From Gemmatimonas sp. (lineage in GTDB: Bacteria > Gemmatimonadota > Gemmatimonadetes > Gemmatimonadales > Gemmatimonadaceae): a stretch of DNA of 64,000 nt. Shown one piece after another: positions 3,073 to 59,190 of the stretch. The position numbers and the translations under genes were made by a program. The stretch lies in the NCBI GenBank assembly GCA_013822425.1, contig PNKL01000009.1, positions 1 to 64,000 of the forward strand, given 5' to 3'. Position 1 is the stretch's first letter. Every line of letters starts with the position of its first letter. The notes beneath the pieces are model-generated. The model did not search any database. It saw nothing but the letters and a program-made list of their open reading frames with translations, and was not told the origin of the DNA.

Positions 3073-3077
3073 GAAAG

Positions 3078-3220
3078 AGGATATGGACTCAGGATCACGA
3101 TCCCGGACATCGATTCCTGATTCCGATGGACGATTGGGGGCGCCGATGACTCGGCGTCCCCCAATCGCTGATCGTGATCCTGAATCGGAATCCTCTATCG
3201 CAATCCTGGGTCCATATCCT
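3078..3220. mobile_element. Family A palindromic element, gene-less copy (MITE-like)
   Basis: This is a 143-bp near-palindrome. The left end reads AGGATATGGACTCAGGAT and the right end, reverse-complemented, reads AGGATATGGACCCAGGAT. The centre is a strong hairpin (ATTGGGGGCGCCGA against TCGGCGTCCCCCAAT). The same terminal sequence and the same GGATTGCGATTC-type subrepeats recur around the four-helix-bundle gene at 22749-23369. No protein can be encoded in it, so it looks like a deletion derivative of that element. It sits between the convergent citrate synthase and mutY genes and may act as a bidirectional terminator. I see no clear target-site duplication. Confidence 0.75.
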
Positions 3221-4010
3221 CAGTCGTCCTCGACTTGCACAGTGTCCGCACCGGGCACTTTCCGCAGCGCTTGACCCGCGCCGTGCACACCAGCGCCCCG
3301 AGCTCCATCAGGGCCTGGTTGTGCGTCCAGCCGGCGCGCCCGGTGCGCGGGAGCACCGCCTCGGCGATCACCCACAGCCTCGCGAGGTCGCGGGCGCGCT
3401 TCGGATTGAGCGTCGGGGCGAAGCAGCGTTTCAGCACGCGGGCCACGTTGGTGTCCACCAGGGCGGCGCGCCGTTCGTACGCAAAGCTCGCCACCGCGCC
3501 GGCGGTGTACGCGCCGATCCCCGGCAGCGCCCGCAGATCCACCGCGGCCGACGGGATCTTGCCTCCGTACACCGAGACTTCCTCGCGCACCACGCGGCGT
3601 GCCAGCCTGTGCAGGTTGCGCGCCCGCGCGTAGTAGCCGAGGCCGCGCCACTGCGCGACGACGTGCGCCTCCCGCGCCGACGCGAGCGATGCGAGGTCCG
3701 GGAAGCGGGCGAGGAAGCGGTCGTAGAACTCGCGCACCCGCGACACCTGCGTCTGCTGGAGCATCAGCTCCGAGACGAGAATCCGGTACGCATCACGGGT
3801 CTGGCGCCAGGGCAGGTCGCGCGCGTTTCGGCGAAACCACGCGCGGAGGCGGCGCGAGAACTCGCGGGCGACCTCCGGCGTCGGCAGTGCCGCCGCACGG
3901 CGCGGCGTGATACGCCGGGGCTTGGGCGGCGTGGCCTTGGGCGGCGCGGCCGTTGGCGGTGTGACGAGCCGTGGCCCGGCTGAGCGAGGCGTGGAGCGGG
4001 GGGCAGGCAT
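3195..4010 (-). CDS. mutY: A/G-specific adenine DNA glycosylase, short form
   Basis: The 271-residue enzyme removes adenine mispaired with 8-oxoguanine. Visible features are the catalytic Glu in SELMLQQTQVSRV, the helix-hairpin-helix LPGIGAYTAGAVASFAY, the catalytic Asp in LVDTNVARVLKRC, and a C-x6-C-x2-C-x5-C iron-sulfur loop near the C-terminus. The NUDIX-like C-terminal domain that reads 8-oxoG in typical MutY (about 350 residues) is absent. The protein ends about ten residues after the last cysteine, and its final eight residues (EDMDPGLR) and stop codon are encoded by the family A element. The first 40 residues are Pro/Arg/Ala-rich and probably disordered. Confidence 0.88.
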   Translation of the reverse strand: MPAPRSTPRSAGPRLVTPPTAAPPKATPPKPRRITPRRAAALPTPEVAREFSRRLRAWFRRNARDLPWRQTRDAYRILVSELMLQQTQVSRVREFYDRFLARFPDLASLASAREAHVVAQWRGLGYYARARNLHRLARRVVREEVSVYGGKIPSAAVDLRALPGIGAYTAGAVASFAYERRAALVDTNVARVLKRCFAPTLNPKRARDLARLWVIAEAVLPRTGRAGWTHNQALMELGALVCTARVKRCGKCPVRTLCKSRTTEDMDPGLR

Positions 4011-19675: not shown

Positions 19676-20393
19676 ATGATGCTCACTCTCCATCGACTTG
19701 TTCGCGCCGGCGGTTGCGCAGCGGCTGCGTTCACGCTCGGCTGCGCGCATGACGCGGTGGCGCCGGAGCGCGCGATCGGCGTGGCGGCGCGTGGATCGAT
19801 CAACTACCACGACGAAGGCCGCGGGTCACGCGACTCAAGCGTCGTCACGTTCGAGGACTTTGCGTTTGGCGCCATCCACGGGCAGCAAGGATGGCCTCAC
19901 CGTCGTTTTCGCCGAACGGTCGGACTCTGCCGCGCCGGGGGCATTCGTGCGATCGACCGTTGCGCGCGGCCTTGACCGCCGCCGGGCTCACGTCATCCGG
20001 CTGAGCATGGACTTCGTCGATGGACCGGGCAACGACGTTGTGCGCGTCTACGTGGACGGTGTGCTCAGGCACACCGGCGCCAGCTGGGAGACGTACTACA
20101 ACTACGACGCCAACGGCCGGTCGAATTTCGGCGGTGCAACGCCGGCGGTGAACCGCGTGATGTTTCGCACGGGCAGCGACACGCATCGCGGGGTCCCCGG
20201 CGATCCCGCCCCCGAGACGCTCGGTCGCGGGTTCCTGATTGATGGTGTGTACGTTGCGGCGTTCTCGGTGGCAACGTCGGCGGAATCGTGCCGCAACGAC
20301 GGCTGGCGGGACCTCCGCGATGCATCGGGGCGCCCATTCAGGAACCAGGGCGACTGCGTGAGCTGGGTGCGGAGCGCGCGCCGCGATCGGTGA
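19676..20393 (+). pseudogene. LamG-like lipoprotein gene broken by internal deletion and frameshift
   Basis: One frame from ATG 19676 gives a lipoprotein-type leader (AAAAFTLGCAHDAVAPERA) and then VVTFEDFAFGAIHGQQGW, the usual N-terminal strand of a family of secreted beta-sandwich proteins. After about 19890 the frame becomes nonsense. The next frame continues with DGLTVVFAERSDSAAP, LSMDFVDGPGNDVVRVYVDG, GRGFLIDGVYVAAF and the C-terminal module CRNDGWRDL...FRNQGDCVSWV, which match the later part of the same family. The middle, which in relatives spans well over 100 residues, is missing. The join lies at the GGGCAGCAAGGATGGCC region. I infer a deletion pseudogene. Confidence 0.65.
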
Positions 20394-20457
20394 CGCCGAG
20401 GGTGCGGCGGCGATTCGGGTACCTCAACGTGCCTGGTGGCAGGTGCCGCTGCCGAGC

Positions 20458-20586
20458 TTCGACTGCCTTGCCGCGGATTACGCGGACATGGCGGATAAAC
20501 ACGGATACGGCGTTGGAAGAACCCGAATCCGGATCCGCGTTATCCGCCCCCATCCGCGTAAGCCGCGGCAAGGGCGTTCGCAGTTT
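20458..20586. repeat. Family B palindromic repeat, copy 2
   Basis: The left arm CTTGCCGCGGATTACGCGGA pairs with the right arm ATCCGCGTAAGCCGCGGCAAG, with an inner ATCCGCGTTATCCGC unit and the outer flank GCGTTCGCAGTTT. It fills most of the 236-bp gap between the convergent LamG-like pseudogene and the protein kinase gene. No ORF is associated with it. Confidence 0.75.
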
Positions 20587-20629
20587 GTGGTGCACCTCCC
20601 TCGCAGTCCACGTCGCTGCATTCAGTCCA

Positions 20630-21676
20630 TCAGCGCAGCCCCAGCAGGCGCCGCACGAACGAGGGCCGGCCGGGATGGCCGTGCGCCGCCCGACTGCTGG
20701 TGCCGCTGGACGTGGGCGACTGCTCCGTGGGCGGGCGGTAGCTGTCCGGGAAGAGCATGGCAAGGTGCGCCTGCAGGCTCTTGGCCGTGCCGGGCTCGCG
20801 GTGCAGCGTGCAGTACTGATCGAGCACGCGCTCAAAATCCGCCGCGCCGGGGCGCTGCTCGGGCGATCTGCTGAGTACGGCGCGCAGCAGTCCAGCGAGC
20901 GCCGGATCGATACCCGGAACGGAACGGGCCACGTCCGGCATGGGCGCCACCGCGACTTCATCGATGGCGGCGTCCGTCTCGTCTTCGGTGAAGAGCGGCT
21001 TCAGCGCGACCATCTCGAAGAGGACGATGCCCATGGCGAAGATGTCGCAGCGCCAATCCACCTGCCCGCCGAGGATCTGTTCGGGGCTCATGTAGTGCTT
21101 CTTGCCCATCATGAGCGGGCGCCGGGCGGCGGGATCGATCATGGTCTTCGCCTTTGCGATGCCGAAGTCGCCGAGCTTCACGTGCCCGTCCCACGTGAGG
21201 AGGACATTGCCGGGCGAGACATCGCGGTGGACGATGTCGAGGCGCCGCCCGTTGCGATCCACGAAGTTGTGGGCGAAGTCGAGGGCGCGGCAGAGGCGGC
21301 TGCCGACAAAGGCGGCGAGGGCGGGGCTCATGGGCAGGCCAAGCTGGCGGTGACGGTCGATCAGCGCGCGCAGCGTCACGCCCCTGATGAACTCCATCGC
21401 AATGAAGAACTCGTTGTCGAGCTGACCCAGCTGGTAGATCTGCACGATGTTGCCGTGCACCAGGTCGGCCGAGAGCTTGGCCTCGTCGATGAAGAGCTGC
21501 CGCCACTCGGCCTGCCGGGCGTAGCGGTCGTGGATGATCTTGAGCGCGATCTGCTTGGTGAAGCCGGCCGGCCCGAGCTGCTCCGCCTCGTACACGGTGG
21601 CCATACCGCCCCGGGCGACCTTCCGGATGATGCGGAACTGACCTGCGTACTCGAAGAGGCGTCCTTCGTTCTCCAT
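20630..21676 (-). CDS. Serine/threonine protein kinase (PknB/Hanks type), cytosolic
   Basis: The 348-residue protein has a complete kinase domain: glycine loop ARGGMATVYEA, invariant Lys in QIALKIIH, catalytic loop VHRDVSPGNVLL, DFG in VKLGDFGIAKA, and the activation segment ending MSPEQILGG. The C-terminal 60 residues are Ser/Thr/Pro-rich and end FVRRLLGLR, with no transmembrane helix or sensor domain, so it is probably soluble. A PP2C-type phosphatase that could act as its opposite is encoded at about 46 kb. It starts 30 bp from the divergent ferredoxin reductase gene. Confidence 0.92.
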   Translation of the reverse strand: MENEGRLFEYAGQFRIIRKVARGGMATVYEAEQLGPAGFTKQIALKIIHDRYARQAEWRQLFIDEAKLSADLVHGNIVQIYQLGQLDNEFFIAMEFIRGVTLRALIDRHRQLGLPMSPALAAFVGSRLCRALDFAHNFVDRNGRRLDIVHRDVSPGNVLLTWDGHVKLGDFGIAKAKTMIDPAARRPLMMGKKHYMSPEQILGGQVDWRCDIFAMGIVLFEMVALKPLFTEDETDAAIDEVAVAPMPDVARSVPGIDPALAGLLRAVLSRSPEQRPGAADFERVLDQYCTLHREPGTAKSLQAHLAMLFPDSYRPPTEQSPTSSGTSSRAAHGHPGRPSFVRRLLGLR

Positions 21677-21705
21677 CGTGGATTCCGGGTATCGGGTTGA
21701 TTTCG

Positions 21706-22749
21706 ATGGGCATGCACCGCGAGCTTTCCCGGATGCGGCACGACCTGCGGGACCTCACGATCATCGGCGCCGGCCCGACCGGGCTGTTTGCGCTCTTCTA
21801 TGCTGGCATGCGCGGCGCCACGGCGCAAATCGTGGATGCGCTCGACCAGCCCGGCGGCCAGCTCGCGGCGCTGTATCCGGAGAAGCTGATCTTCGACGTC
21901 GCCGGCTTTCCGGAGGTGCTCGCGAAGGACCTCGTGAAGTCGCTGATGGCGCAGGCGATCCGGTTCGGGCATCCGATCCTGTGCGGCCAGGTGGTGACGG
22001 GCCTCGACACCGAAGCGGACCACTTCGTCCTGCGCACGGCGACGGACGAGTTTCCCACGCGCGCCATCGTGATTGCGGCGGGCATCGGCGCCTTTTCGCC
22101 GCGGCGGCTGCCGCAGGCCTGCGCGGCGCCGTGGTACGGCAGGGGGATCGAGGAGCACGTGCTCGACCCGGACCGGCTGATCGGCGATCACGTCGTCATC
22201 ATCGGCGGCGGCGACAGCGCCTTCGACTGGGCGCACCAGCTGCAGGGGCGCGCGGCGTCGGTGACGCTGGTGCACCGCACCGACCGCTTCCGCGCGCACC
22301 ACGCGACGGTGGAGGCGGTGCGGGCGGATGTCGCGGCGGGGCGCACGGCGCTGCACACGTTCCACGAACTGCACGAGATCCACGCGGTGGACGGCCGCAT
22401 CCACGAGATCGAGTTGCGCGACGTGAAGGCGAAGACGACGGTGCGCGTGCGCTGCGACATCGTGCTGCCGATGCTTGGCTTCGTGAGCGACCTCGGCGCA
22501 CTGGCGACGTGGGGGCTCACGCTCGAGAAGGAGGAGATCGTCGTCAACTCGCGGATGGAGACGGGGCACGCCGGAATCTACGCGGCGGGCGACGTCGTGA
22601 CGTATCCGGGGAAGCTGAAGCTGATCGCCACCGGCTTCTCCGAGGCGGCGATTGCGGTGAACCAGGCGGTGCATTTCGTGTACCCGGAGAAGAAGATCAA
22701 CCCCGGGCATTCGTCGAATCTTGCAGTCTTCGGGCAGAAAGACGATTGA
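21706..22749 (+). CDS. Ferredoxin/flavodoxin-NADP+ reductase, thioredoxin-reductase-like
   Basis: The protein of about 347 residues has two Rossmann folds: FAD-binding LTIIGAGPTGLFALFYAGMRG and NAD(P)-binding HVVIIGGGDSAFDWAHQL. The redox CxxC of thioredoxin reductase is absent, which marks the FNR2/YumC type that reduces ferredoxin with NADPH. The GIYAAGDVVTYPGKLKLIA region completes the FAD site. Several ATGs (21706, 21712, 21733) are possible; homologues fit any. The TGA stop takes its last base from the first base of the family A element at 22749, so the original C-terminus may have been different. Confidence 0.88.
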   Translation: MGMHRELSRMRHDLRDLTIIGAGPTGLFALFYAGMRGATAQIVDALDQPGGQLAALYPEKLIFDVAGFPEVLAKDLVKSLMAQAIRFGHPILCGQVVTGLDTEADHFVLRTATDEFPTRAIVIAAGIGAFSPRRLPQACAAPWYGRGIEEHVLDPDRLIGDHVVIIGGGDSAFDWAHQLQGRAASVTLVHRTDRFRAHHATVEAVRADVAAGRTALHTFHELHEIHAVDGRIHEIELRDVKAKTTVRVRCDIVLPMLGFVSDLGALATWGLTLEKEEIVVNSRMETGHAGIYAAGDVVTYPGKLKLIATGFSEAAIAVNQAVHFVYPEKKINPGHSSNLAVFGQKDD

Positions 22750-23369
22750 GGATTTGGACCTAGGATTGCGATTCAGGATTGCGAATCAGGATTGCGATGG
22801 GCGATGGGGGCGTGCTTGCGCGCCACCACCTTCATTTGCCCGGAACGGGGCGGCATTGCCTTGATCGCGGTCAGCAGCTGACGGCGTATCTGGACGAGCA
22901 GATCTCGGTACTCCGCGCGCGGCGGCCACGGTGTCTCGCCCAGTGCATCGATCCAGGCGAGTGACTCGCGAGTCGATCCCAGCGCGTAAGTGTAGAACCG
23001 GAGGCGGTCGGCGTTCGCTCCCCGCGAGTATCCTTCGGAGATATTTGCGGCGATCGATGCGATGGCCCGCACGAACTGGTGGGCCACGTGAAGCGAGACC
23101 CGGGACCCAAGCTGCGCGACATCGGTGTGGCAACGGGTGCCGAGGTACGTCGCCATGCGGAACATCCGGGTCCGCCAAATCGGATCACCAGCATACGACT
23201 CGGGCGGGGAACCCTCGTACGAAGCGAAGGAGAGGGATGGGAGCGTCATGCCTGAGGGTAAGCAACCGGAGGGGCTGTTGCGTCACCGATCGGTTGCCAC
23301 GCCGGCCTTTCCATCGCCAATCGCTATCCGGAATCGCCATCCTGAATCGCAATCCTAGGTCCAAATCCT
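22749..23369. mobile_element. Family A element carrying a four-helix-bundle gene between inverted repeats
   Basis: The 621-bp unit begins AGGATTTGGACCTAGGATTG and ends with its complement. The terminal inverted repeats are about 59 bp with five mismatches (22749-22807 and 23311-23369). Each arm is made of three 13-bp subrepeats of the form AGGATTGCGATTC, followed by GCGATGG. The four-helix-bundle gene lies entirely between the outer ends, and its last codons are part of the left repeat. The same ends bound the gene-less 143-bp copy at 3078-3220. No transposase is present, so mobilisation would have to be in trans or by the encoded protein. Confidence 0.75.
22773..23249 (-). CDS. Four helix bundle protein (23S rRNA intervening-sequence protein family)
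   Basis: The 158-residue protein carries the family core RAIASIAANISEGYSRGANA followed by RLRFYTYALGSTRESLAWID, matching the pattern SIxxNIxEGxxR...F.xxAxGSxxE of the S23/IVP family. Related proteins occur inside 23S rRNA intervening sequences, and Avd of diversity-generating retroelements has the same fold, but no reverse transcriptase is present here. The molecular function is unknown. The C-terminal residues (HRNPDSQS) are encoded by the left inverted repeat of the element. No Shine-Dalgarno is evident before the ATG at 23249. Confidence 0.88.
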   Translation of the reverse strand: MTLPSLSFASYEGSPPESYAGDPIWRTRMFRMATYLGTRCHTDVAQLGSRVSLHVAHQFVRAIASIAANISEGYSRGANADRLRFYTYALGSTRESLAWIDALGETPWPPRAEYRDLLVQIRRQLLTAIKAMPPRSGQMKVVARKHAPIAHRNPDSQS

Positions 23370-23415
23370 AATTCGGTTGTTGACAACTATAAGAGCAGGT
23401 ACAGAAATTTCTTCG

Positions 23416-25665
23416 GTGCGCCGCCTCCTTTTCGCCTTCCTGGTCCCCGCTGCCCTGCAGGCGCAGGACATCGTCTGCGACAAGGGCGACACGGAAGTGT
23501 CGCGGCTCGAGTTCACAGGCAACCATTCATTTCCGTCCGCCGTGCTGGCCAACGGGATCGCCACGACGCCCTCCACGTGGGCGCGCCGTTGGCTCACGGT
23601 CTTCGGCACGCGCTATTGCCTCGATCCGCGCGAGTTTCCGCGCGACGTCATTCGCCTCATCCTGTTCTACCGGAGCCACGGGTATCTTTCCGTCACGGTG
23701 GACACGCTGGTCACGCGCCTGAGCTCGTCGCAGGTGGCGGTGCGCTTCATCATCACCGAGGACTATCCGACGCGGGTGCGCTCGCTCGAGATCACGGGCC
23801 TCGACGAGGTGCCGACCCGCGCGTCCGTCGCGCGCGCGCTGCCGTTGCGGATGGACAGTCCGTTCGACCGCACGGCACTCGCCGCCTCGCGCGACACGCT
23901 GGCGCTCTGGCTGCGGAACAGCGGCTACCCTGGTGCCGAGGTGCTCGTCAACTACGAAACGGACGCCGACCGTCGGGCCGCGTCAGTGACGTTTGCGGCC
24001 ATCCCGGGCGCGCGGGCGCGCATCGGCGCGGTGCAGGTGCAGGTACGAGCGTTCCGGGAGCAGACGGTGGTGGACACCACCGTGGTGCGGCGTCTCACCG
24101 GCCTGTCGGTCGGCGCCTGGTACCGGCAGCGGGACCTCGAGCGCGCCAAGCGCGCGCTGTACAGCTCGCAGTTGTTCTCGGCGGTCAGCATCGAGCCCGA
24201 CACGGGCGGTTCGCGGGTCGACTCCATCGTGCGCGTGGACGTGCGGGTGGCCGAGGGCGCCATGCAGCGCGCGCGCGTGGGCGGCGGCTGGGGCACCATC
24301 GATTGCTTTCGCACGTACGCCGACTACTCGCACATGAACGTCGGCCGCCGCGCCACGCGGGTGGACCTGCGGGGGCGCGTCTCGAAGATCGGGGTCGGGC
24401 GTCCGCTCGACGGCCTCGAGGCGCTCTGTTCCGGCGAAGCGCGACGCGACGCGTTCGGCGCCGACCTGAACTACTCCGCCGGCATCACGATCACGCCGCC
24501 GACGTCGGCGCGCGCCGCCGTGCAGCCGTCGCTCACGCTGTTCAGCGAGCGCCGCTCGGAGTACAACGCCTACCTGCGCACGACGCCCATCGGCGGCGCG
24601 CTGTCGTTCGCGCGCAGCGCGGGGCGCCGTTCGCAGAACGCGTCGTACACGCTGGAGTACGGTGACACCAAGTCGTCGCCCGCCTTCCTGTGCGCCGTCT
24701 TCAACGCCTGCGATGCCGCCGACCAGGACGCGCTGCTGCGCCGCCAGCGCCTCGCCGTGCTGGGGCTGTCGTTCCTCGACGAGAAGACCGACAACCCGAC
24801 CAACCCGAATCGCGGCACGGTGCTACGCGGCGAGGTTCGGCATGCGTCGAACGCGGTGGGCTCCGACCGCCGGCTGCAGTTCACGCGCCTCACGCTCGAC
24901 GGCGCGGGCTACCTGCCGCTCGGCTCCGACATCGTGCTCGCGGCCCGGCTGCGCATCGGCGCCGTACTCGGGCCGACGCTGCAGACGACGGCGGGCGATG
25001 CCTACGTGCCGGTGCAGGAACGACTCTACGCCGGCGGCGCCAGGACCGTGCGCGGCTTCCGCCAGAACGAACTGGGGCCGGTGGTCTACAACACCTCCGC
25101 GTACGATACGGTGCGCGCGGACGGCACGCCGGGCGGGGATCCGTCCGATCCGTCGCAGGAGGTCTACTTCCGCGCCAACCCCGCCGCGGGCGGCGCGCGC
25201 ACGATCCCGACGGGCGGCAATGCGATGCTCGTCGCCAATTTCGAGGCCCGCGTGCGCAGCCCGGTGCTGGCCGACCTGCTGCAGCTCGCGTTCTTCGCCG
25301 ATGCCGGTCGCGTGTGGAACCGCGGCGCCGCGACGTCGCTGAACCTCAAGTCGGTGCAATGGACGCCGGGCGTCGGCGCGCGCGTGCGCACGCTGGTGGG
25401 GCTGATCCGTGTGGACATCGGCTACAACCCGTACCAGCGCGCCGCCGGTTCCGCCTACTTCGACACGCCGGTTTCAGCGGGCGGGCAGCTCTACTGCGTG
25501 AGTCCGACGAACACGTTGCGCGTCACGGCGACCGGCGGCCCCAACGGCGGTCCGGCCGTGCTGCAGCAGGTGGCAGGCAGGTGCCCCGCCTCCTTTGTGC
25601 CCTCGATCGAACGCAGTTTCTTCCGGCGGCTCGTGCCGCAGATCTCCATCGGGCAGGCCTTCTAG
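23416..25665 (+). CDS. Omp85-family outer-membrane protein (BamA/TamA-like)
   Basis: From GTG 23416 the product has about 749 residues. It starts with a signal peptide (RRLLFAFLVPAALQAQ, cut after AQA/LQAQ). About three POTRA-like repeats follow to roughly residue 300 (VSRLEFTGNHSF; VRSLEITGLDEVP; ARIGAVQVQVRA), then a 16-strand-type beta-barrel with the Omp85 signature YAGGARTVRGFRQNELGP and a C-terminal aromatic strand ending IGQAF. It inserts or exports proteins at the outer membrane. The gene lies 1 bp before a TamB-like gene, so it is more likely TamA than BamA. A TTG at 23377 would extend it, without a proper signal peptide. Confidence 0.88.
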   Translation: MRRLLFAFLVPAALQAQDIVCDKGDTEVSRLEFTGNHSFPSAVLANGIATTPSTWARRWLTVFGTRYCLDPREFPRDVIRLILFYRSHGYLSVTVDTLVTRLSSSQVAVRFIITEDYPTRVRSLEITGLDEVPTRASVARALPLRMDSPFDRTALAASRDTLALWLRNSGYPGAEVLVNYETDADRRAASVTFAAIPGARARIGAVQVQVRAFREQTVVDTTVVRRLTGLSVGAWYRQRDLERAKRALYSSQLFSAVSIEPDTGGSRVDSIVRVDVRVAEGAMQRARVGGGWGTIDCFRTYADYSHMNVGRRATRVDLRGRVSKIGVGRPLDGLEALCSGEARRDAFGADLNYSAGITITPPTSARAAVQPSLTLFSERRSEYNAYLRTTPIGGALSFARSAGRRSQNASYTLEYGDTKSSPAFLCAVFNACDAADQDALLRRQRLAVLGLSFLDEKTDNPTNPNRGTVLRGEVRHASNAVGSDRRLQFTRLTLDGAGYLPLGSDIVLAARLRIGAVLGPTLQTTAGDAYVPVQERLYAGGARTVRGFRQNELGPVVYNTSAYDTVRADGTPGGDPSDPSQEVYFRANPAAGGARTIPTGGNAMLVANFEARVRSPVLADLLQLAFFADAGRVWNRGAATSLNLKSVQWTPGVGARVRTLVGLIRVDIGYNPYQRAAGSAYFDTPVSAGGQLYCVSPTNTLRVTATGGPNGGPAVLQQVAGRCPASFVPSIERSFFRRLVPQISIGQAF

Positions 25666-25666
25666 C

Positions 25667-28600
25667 ATGGGCCGCCGCCGCTACGTCGCCCTCGCGAGCG
25701 CCATCGCGATCCTCATCATGGGATCGGCGCTCGCCGTCGCGCTCGGCGCGCTGACGCGGTCGGCCGGCGGTCGCGAGTGGATTCGCGCGCAGGTGCAGCG
25801 GACGCTGACCAGCGCGCTGCGCGGCAAGATCCACGTGGGCGCGCTCAGCGGGGGATTCCTCACCGGACTCACCATCGACTCGCTCGAGCTCCGCGAGTCC
25901 AACGACTCGCTCTTCCTCGCCACGGGCCCGGTGCGCGTGACGTACGACCCGCGCGACATCATGGACGGCGTGATCTACCTGCGGTCGCTCGACGTGCAGC
26001 GCCTCTTCATGCGATTGCAGCGGCGCAACAACGAGTGGAACTACCGGTCCATCTTCCCGGCAGGCGCGCCGCGCACCGGGCCGCGCCGCGGGTTCGGCAG
26101 CCGCGTTGCGATTGCGAATGTGCGCGTGCGCGGCGGAGACGTGCGCGTCGGAATGCCGTGGGCGCCGGCGGACTCGCTGCACGGCGCGCGGCGCGACAGC
26201 GCCATTGCGGTGGCGCTGGCCGATACCGCCGGCGGCGTGCGCCGCATCGGGTCCAACGCGTACGAGAAGGAATGGAAGTGGAGCGGGATCGCGATGCAGC
26301 TGGCGCACGCCACCGTCGCGGATCCCGACACGAGCGGCCAGCGCTTCGAGATCGCGCGACTCGACATGGTGGAGCGGTACCCGCCGCTCAACCTCCGCAA
26401 CGTCCGCGGTGCCATCTGGCGGCGCGGCGACTCGCTCTGGATTGACCTGCCGCGCTTCGAGCTGCCGGGCTCGTCGGGGCGGGCGAGCGGCAAGGTGGTG
26501 TGGGGGAGCGGCCTCCCCACGCGCTACGACATCCGCATCCGCGGCGACACGGTGTCCATGCGCGACGTGGCGTGGGTGTGGGATGGCCTGCCAAGCACCG
26601 GCGGCGGGCGGATGGACCTGCACATCCGGAGCGAGCGCAACCCGCGCGTCATAGACTACGAGGTCGAGAACATGGACATCCGCACCATGGACTCGCGCCT
26701 GCGTGGCCGCATGACGTTCGGCGTCGGTGCGCCGGTGCTCATCGTCAAGGACGTGCAGCTCGAGGCGCTGCCGGTGGACTTCCGGCTGATCGAGCAGTTC
26801 AGCGGCGAGCCCCTGCCGATGCCGTGGCGCGGCGCGATCAGCGGCACGGTGCGCGCGCGCGGCGGACCGGTGAACCGCTGGCGGCTGGACGACGGCCGCT
26901 TCACGTTCGCCGACGCCAACGTGCCCGGCGCCATCACGCGCGGCGCGATGCGCGGCGAGCTCGATATCCTCTTCCCGGCATTCACGGTCTTCCGCGGCGT
27001 GACGGTGGAGCTCGAGCAGCTCGACCTGCGCACGCTCCAGGCGCTCGACACCGCATTCGTGCGTCTCAACGGCATCGTGGCGGGCACGGCCGTGCTCGAC
27101 TCGATGTGGCTCGACGTGCGCCTCCGCGACGCCGACATCACGCACCGCGACGGCGACGCGCCGGTGTCGCGCTTCAAGGGGTCGGGGCGCGTGACGACGG
27201 GCGACGCGGACATGACGTACGACCTGTCGCTGGCGGCGCTGCCGCTGTCGCTCACGGCGATTGCGAGGTCGTATCCGGGGCTCCCAGTGCGCGGCGAGTT
27301 CAGCGGGCCGATGCGCGTGAAGGGCACGACCGACAACCTGACCGTCGTCGCCGACCTGGTGGGCGACGCAGGGCGGCTGGAAACGGACGGTACGTTTGAT
27401 GTCCAGTTTCCGGGCTATCGCGCCACCGCGCGCGGCGCCGCGACAGGACTGGACCTGCGTTCGTTCCTTGGCCGCGCCGACATGCCGACGACGAGCCTGG
27501 CCGTACGCTGGTCGTCCGATATCGAGGGCGATTCGCTCGCCGATCTCCGCGGCGACCTGTCGGCGCGGCTCGACCGCTCGCTCGTGGACAGCGTGCGCGT
27601 CTTCGGCGGCGATGCGCGGCTGCGGTTCCTTGCGGGGACGATGGTCGTGGACTCGGCGTACCTCGAGAGCGCGGCCTTCACGGCCCACGCCCGCGGCCGT
27701 CTGGCGCTCGCGCCCGGTCGTGCGGGCGACTCGGTGGCCTTCCGTATCGCGCTCGATTCGCTCGGCGGCTTCCGCCGCGCCCTCGCCCGGATGGAAGGCG
27801 CATCCGTCGGCAAGCAGGCGGCGGAGCGACTGACCGCGGACACCTCGGCGCTCGACGGCGCGGTCCGCATCGATGGCGCGCTCGGCGGCGCCTGGCCTGC
27901 CCTGCGCCTCAATGTTGCGGCGCGCGGCACGGACCTGCAGGTGGGCACCACCCGCGTGCACGATGTCGATGCGACCGCGCAGCTCACCCTTCCCCTGGAC
28001 TCGCTGCGCGGCGCGGTGCGTTCCCGTTTCGAGGGGGTGACAGCGGGCGGCGTGCGGTTCCATAGCCTGGTCGCCGACGTGGACCTGCCGGCCGCGGGAC
28101 GGGCGGTGGCCGACCTGAAGGCCGAATTCGCGAACGGCCCGTCGGCCGGTGCGCGCGCCGACATGGCGTGGTCACGAGACACGACCGAAGTGCGCCTCGA
28201 CCGCCTCCGCGTCTCGACCGCCGCCAACGACTGGGCGCTGCTCGCGCCGTCTCGTATCCTGCGGGATTCCTCGGGATGGCGTGTGGATTCGCTCGTGCTT
28301 GTGGGCCGGGAAGCGGGGCGGCTGTTGCTGCGCGGTGTCTTCCCAGACCGCGCCGAAGTGGCCGCCCGCTTCGAGGGCACCGCCCTGCCGCTCGGTGACC
28401 TCGGCGAACTCATGCAGTCGGCCTCGCCGATGCGCGGCAGCCTGACGCTGGCGGCGGCGGTGACCGGTACGCGCAACGCGCCGCGGATGGCGCTCGACGC
28501 CTCGCTGCGCGACGGCGAGATCGCCGGCGTGAATGTCGAGCGCGCCACGGCCACCGGGCGCTATGATGCGCGGGTGCTGGACGCGTCACTGCGCACGCTG

Positions 28601-59140: not shown

Positions 59141-59190
59141 CTCTGTTGTCTTTCTGTTGTTTCTCTGTTGTCTCTCTGTTGTCTCTCTGA
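59141..59190 (+). repeat. 11-bp tandem repeat between the lyase and CoA-transferase genes
   Basis: CTCTGTTGTCT is repeated four times with two single-base changes and a partial fifth copy, filling nearly the whole 78-bp gap. The plus strand is pure pyrimidine/guanine. The period equals one turn of DNA. It ends 7 bp before the CoA-transferase ATG, covering the place of a ribosome-binding site. Confidence 0.85.

Follow-up and report, generated by a model that had tools for sequence, protein, structure and literature searches.

Inverted tandem-repeat arms around a four-helix-bundle gene of Gemmatimonas sp. recur as dispersed gene-less hairpins

Among the closest described systems is REPIN-RAYT, which consists of REP doublets with TnpA_REP (PMC3116915) and in which the REP palindromes are tagged GTAG or CGTC (PMC3733652). 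In the 23S rRNA IVS of Leptospira and Coxiella, an IVP ORF is enclosed by complementary ends that pair into a long stem (PMC4990558), and a role in mobility was proposed for the IVS ORF by Ralph and McClelland in 1993, as cited in that paper. Avd of diversity-generating retroelements cooperates with an enzyme partner in acting on nucleic acid. Dispersed heptamers have been reported as cyanobacterial STRR, as GGGAATC in Xanthomonas, as GGGGAYT in Nostoc and as TAACTGA in Beggiatoaceae (PMC4692102, PMC4679880). In these two papers we found nothing that ties a protein family to the heptamers, and a repeat-binding protein is only speculated upon in PMC4679880. Our search of the open-access literature gave no paper that ties IVP genes to flanking repeat arrays (subscription papers and most preprints lie outside this scope, and priority is not certain).

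We analysed a stretch of 64,000 nucleotides (the window) of the genome of Gemmatimonas sp. (GCA_013822425.1; 3.57 Mb, 206 contigs; here G000). It contains an S23/IVP four-helix-bundle gene (22773..23249, minus strand; 158 aa, PF05635/TIGR02436) between a left arm on the plus strand (22743..22807), composed of 13-bp units AGGATTGCGATTC with the end CGATTGAGGATTTGGACCTAGGATT, and a right arm on the minus strand (23311..23375), which is the inverted repeat of the left arm with 7 mismatches in 65 positions. An earlier, sequence-only reading had described 59-bp inverted ends with five mismatches, built as small arrays of repeated units around a gene without a transposase. All of this was recovered: exactly five positions are mismatched between 22749-22807 and 23311-23369, the complementarity reaches further to the full 65 bp, the arms are arrays of the 13-bp unit, and the unit has neither a transposase inside nor a clear target-site duplication at its ends. 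Its inverted-flank score is 49.6. The left arm takes in the final ~11 IVP codons and the TGA stop of the upstream neighbour, a ferredoxin/thioredoxin-reductase-like ORF (21697..22749, plus strand). Downstream lies an Omp85/BamA-like ORF (23377..25665, plus strand) with a real start that is probably internal; both neighbours were named by eye. The window unit shares the IVP ORF and the terminal stem with the 23S rRNA IVS. It differs from the IVS in lying between protein genes and not in rRNA, in the tandem-repeat structure of its arms and in the many hairpins without a gene that are related to it. Assignment to a known RNA family was dropped, as Rfam gave zero matches across positions 20000-26000.

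The window protein matches PF05635 (E=9e-13) and TIGR02436 'four helix bundle protein' (1.6e-15), which are among the commonest small protein families of 'unknown function', with structures solved since 2006. The proposed fold agrees with the AlphaFold model, a helical bundle with a pLDDT of 91, for which 2RLD and 2GSC ranked best in the fold comparison, followed by Avd (4DWL, 8UB7). Both 2RLD and 2GSC belong to the S23 family and have five chains. The protein is also basic, as had been claimed (pI 10.1; family median 10.2). It shares with Avd the fold class and pentamer-type relatives, and we count the action of Avd on nucleic acid as a further likeness. In contrast to the Avd systems, no reverse transcriptase is present near the window IVP gene, and PF00078 is missing from 10 of 11 genomes of the genus. 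The one reverse transcriptase gene of the window's genome (L282, G000:C4:33376-33993) is not linked to hairpins.

When both strands are counted, BLAST with the unit gave 119 matches across the 3.57-Mb genome. The ends are not unique, and the sequence-only reading passes its own test on this point. Most dispersed arms are intergenic inverted pairs of ~140-180 bp with no gene inside; the dispersed part is a hairpin without the gene. One gene-less hairpin of this arm family lies within the window (3077..3227, no strand assigned). The remaining arms are single, with the partner absent within the 3-4 kb surveyed; following 13 of them for ~3-4 kb inside loci yielded no partner, and the idea that they are halves of larger gene-bearing units was rejected. 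Common to all is the outer end GATTGAGGATTTGGAC, and the GGA/CGA spacing has a 13-bp period. For the 17 hairpins with both neighbours called, these are convergent in 7, co-directional in 8 and divergent in 2 cases, which places the hairpins mainly at gene 3' ends. Five example hairpins folded with z values of -10 to -16. Between the two arms there is a significant but modest pairing constraint: in variable columns, pairing reaches 0.755 for the arms of one and the same hairpin and 0.703 when arms are exchanged between hairpins (p=0.0008). That a terminator and a gene just happen to coincide was rejected on the copy number together with the flank controls given below.

Two further observations concern individual copies. 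The outer end GATTGA (window 22743-22749) supplies or overlaps the TGA stop of the neighbour gene, which is likewise the case in dispersed hairpins such as L017, L042 and L048; the elements look as if they were settling exactly at gene 3' ends. At L033 (G000:C5, 588-1859), inverted arms lie 1.2 kb apart around an unassigned ORF, which may be a second cargo or may reflect two single arms.

Inverted arms are the rule for IVP genes in this group. At a threshold score of 20, such flanks were detected at 58/65 IVP loci of the window's genome and its relatives, compared with 1/129 small ORFs and 2/420 random 375-bp segments from the same genomes; most of the four-helix-bundle genes of relatives thus carry ends, a point on which the sequence-only reading had depended. 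The window's genome has six IVP genes, five of which are boxed by inverted arms of differing sequence: the 13-bp family of the window, the 11-bp family AGAGACAACAG, the 7-bp family GGTAGAG, a GCACGGTGGGGT array and GGAACGAGGAGGAGGTAGAGG. All five families turn up elsewhere in a 242-kb sample. A single array of the 11-bp family, which is the arm family of the IVP gene L009, lies in the window itself (59143..59186, minus strand). Most arms consist of short tandem arrays, G-rich heptamers being typical, and 54/58 are G-rich when read inward; tandem periodicity is enriched as well (38/65 and 25/64 vs 7/300 and 3/112). In two species of the genus, an IVP lineage that keeps its syntenic site (L011 in G000:C1 and L118 in G004:C56), with an upstream neighbour shared even with other genera, is without strong arms and has lost recognisable ones.

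The association extends beyond the genus. In a scan of GTDB genomes from other phyla, 18/66 testable IVP loci reached the same score of 20 vs 1/251 control positions in the same loci, and strong arms were absent at the other 48. The loci with arms include Cyanobacteria, Planctomycetota, Chloroflexota, Bacteroidota, Firmicutes, Acidobacteria, Kiritimatiellota and Elusimicrobia, and the tandem period in the cross-phylum set is mostly 7 or 14. On complete plasmids of named organisms, arms were present in 8/10 IVP cases, such as the TAGGGAG arrays of Nostoc edaphicum. Cyanobacterial IVP arms comprise AGGGAAT, AGGGTGT and GGGAGTA heptamers. They resemble the dispersed heptamers mentioned above in being heptameric, intergenic and present in many copies, and differ from them in flanking an IVP gene in inverted orientation. 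This resemblance offers a lead for linking IVP arms to the known G-rich heptamers, drawn from the sequences of arms at cyanobacterial loci and plasmids other than the chromosomes of the strains studied before.

Plasmids 1 and 2 of Calothrix brevissima NIES-22 (L271 and L272) have the same IVP unit, with arms of AGGGTGT heptamers, and on both it follows downstream of a phage-type integrase; the two plasmids apparently have a larger segment in common. On plasmid pANA02 of Anabaena sp. 90 (L276, 3001-3369), an IVP gene lies inside AGGTGACAGGGAAC arrays, and the unit sits between cas6 and cas4 of a type I-D CRISPR locus. The 23S rRNA IVP has been listed beside CRISPR adaptation modules (PMC10910872), and arrangements like that of L276 may be the source of this association.

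The genus comparison covered 11 genomes, including that of the window, in incomplete assemblies. Beyond the genus, one relative listed under the same family proved by sequence identity to be Gemmatirosa kalamazoonensis, which places the host in Gemmatimonadaceae. The window IVP gene has one close orthologue per genome (63-73% identity) in 9/10 other species, and the upstream neighbour adjoins it in 3/3 species checked (84-91% identity). Synteny was established for three orthologues of the window gene and two further IVP groups; genus IVP genes keep their places between neighbours whose proteins are mostly 80-95% identical, but their arm sequences vary between species. The unit carrying the gene had been likened to a minimal mobile element, and this part of the earlier interpretation is not supported: within the genus, the unit has stayed at one syntenic site by vertical inheritance. 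A reading in which the gene-bearing unit transposes autonomously by way of terminal inverted repeats is very unlikely in our view. Its ends do resemble such repeats, and up to 12 IVP paralogues occur per genome. There is also a site of clean presence and absence: the Nostoc edaphicum plasmid has its IVP unit between nrdB and nrdA, whereas a Calothrix NIES-4105 plasmid has nrdB and nrdA without it. The occurrence of this gene pair with and without the unit marks the unit as discrete, but the difference could be either gain or loss, and no clear target duplication was seen at the unit ends there. Against transposition stand the lack of a transposase domain, the absence of clear target duplications and the single-copy state of the examined genus IVP genes at conserved sites.

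Gene and repeat occur together across the genus. A degenerate pattern for the window's arm family (F1) had 33-157 matches in each of the 10 species that have the IVP orthologue and none in G003, and the reversed pattern used as control had 0 matches in every genome. In G003 (87% complete), both neighbours are present and the IVP gene is missing at the syntenic site. All that is left there is a decayed right arm (score 20 vs a shuffled maximum of 17.5), which indicates gene loss. For the 11-bp family (F2), the 7 species whose group-A IVP occupies its syntenic site gave 78-316 matches, and the 4 species without it gave 0-1; here the reversed-pattern control is uninformative, because the reversed pattern is a mirror palindrome. 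The F1 result depends on G003 as the single gene-less genome, and the co-occurrence is inflated by shared ancestry, as all species belong to one genus.

In addition, home arms and dispersed copies match in a genome-specific manner. Counted by hand among the matches listed, the core AGCTCGG of the IVP arms of G008 appears in 51/83 matches of that genome and the core ATCACGG of the G004 arms in ~50/68 of its own, and neither core is found in the ~100 matches listed for G000. Other genomes likewise have their own versions, namely CCGAGG in G010, CTTAGG in G005 and CCTAGG or CTCAGG in G000. Strict concerted evolution, with the own partner always the best match, was dropped: close species share arms, and an arm is therefore matched best by its own partner in no more than 2/7, 1/8 and 2/9 orthologues. 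The coupling of the arms is real but partial and not exclusive.

These results bear on the possibility that the arms have a role in the IVP transcript alone, as an IVS-like terminal stem for RNase III cutting, autoregulation or termination, and that the dispersed copies, unlinked to the protein, are hairpin repeats of an ordinary kind, such as terminators. The 633-nt window unit does fold with its arms paired (z -7.2), the 28-bp terminal stem of the 23S IVS is cut by RNase III (PMC4990558), and the prevalence of hairpins at gene 3' ends (7/8/2), some with GC-rich inner stems, would suit terminators. Such a scheme, however, predicts neither the co-occurrence of gene and copies, nor their shared species-specific core, nor a genome like G003 that lacks both, and we regard it as unlikely, if still the most credible of the alternatives.

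From these analyses, we conclude that the window unit is probably (at a probability of about 0.6) the home locus of a two-part, REPIN-RAYT-like system, made up of the IVP gene and its dispersed hairpins. The analogy with REP/RAYT pairs drawn from the sequence alone holds in its logic: dozens of copies of the ends exist, and most IVP genes of relatives have such ends. In both systems, a single-copy, vertically inherited gene is flanked by a repeat that is also dispersed, the dispersed repeats are intergenic inverted doublets plus singlets, and several families occur per genome, each with its own gene and with lineage-specific, co-evolving sequences. The differences lie in the partner, a four-helix bundle (PF05635) instead of an HUH/Y1 nuclease (PF01797), in the arms, which are 40-65 bp tandem arrays of 7-, 8-, 11- or 13-bp units instead of 20-40 bp palindromes, and in the arm ends, which read GATTGAGGATTTGGAC and have no GTAG/CGTC tag. 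We do not file the locus as REPIN-RAYT, because the partner is not a Y1 transposase and these tags are lacking.

The hairpins might instead be REP/MITE elements moved by a RAYT or another transposase, with IVP genes as passengers that tend to insert into hairpin loops. Inverted pairs and single arms do resemble REPs, and the window's genome has one Y1_Tnp fragment. Y1, though, is found in 2/11 genus genomes, at sites other than the IVP units, and reverse transcriptase in 1/11, whereas hairpins are found in 10/11; on this distribution, RAYT (PF01797) or reverse transcriptase (PF00078) was rejected as a general mobiliser. Moreover, the association with IVP genes is far above control, in many phyla and with unrelated arm sequences. 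This explanation is already weakened, and we consider it improbable. The Y1 fragment of the window's genome (L100, G000:C81) lies alone at a contig edge and is not linked to hairpins.

Returning to the two-part system, the home locus holds a single-copy, vertically inherited IVP gene boxed by two inverted arms, and dozens of gene-less hairpins built from arms of this family are dispersed at gene 3' ends. The IVP protein would be a pentamer, like 2RLD, 2GSC and Avd, and, being basic, may bind the hairpin as RNA or as single-stranded or cruciform DNA. To our knowledge, the S23/IVP family has no catalytic site, so that the bound protein would have to promote copying, homogenisation or upkeep of the hairpins through host enzymes. 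Candidate routes are lagging-strand template switching at hairpins and RNA-templated repair; neither a target-site duplication nor a fresh insertion has been demonstrated for the hairpins. The IVP protein would thereby fill the role that RAYT plays for REPINs, and each IVP paralogue of a genome would serve its own arm family.

Our results suggest that the IVP family is an unrecognised partner of some short hairpin and heptamer repeats in bacterial genomes. We tentatively extend this, at slightly less than even odds, to S23/IVP proteins in general, as cognate binders and propagators or maintainers of hairpin or G-rich heptamer repeats in many phyla, a transposase-free counterpart of REPIN-RAYT of which the 23S rRNA IVS would be one special case. 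If true, this would give a function to PF05635/TIGR02436, a very common small family of 'unknown function', and would explain where dispersed hairpin and heptamer repeats of bacteria that have had no origin assigned, such as the cyanobacterial STRRs, come from. The idea of 1993 that the IVS ORF serves mobility would become directly testable, and REPIN-like intragenomic sequence populations would prove to be maintainable by a non-nuclease protein.
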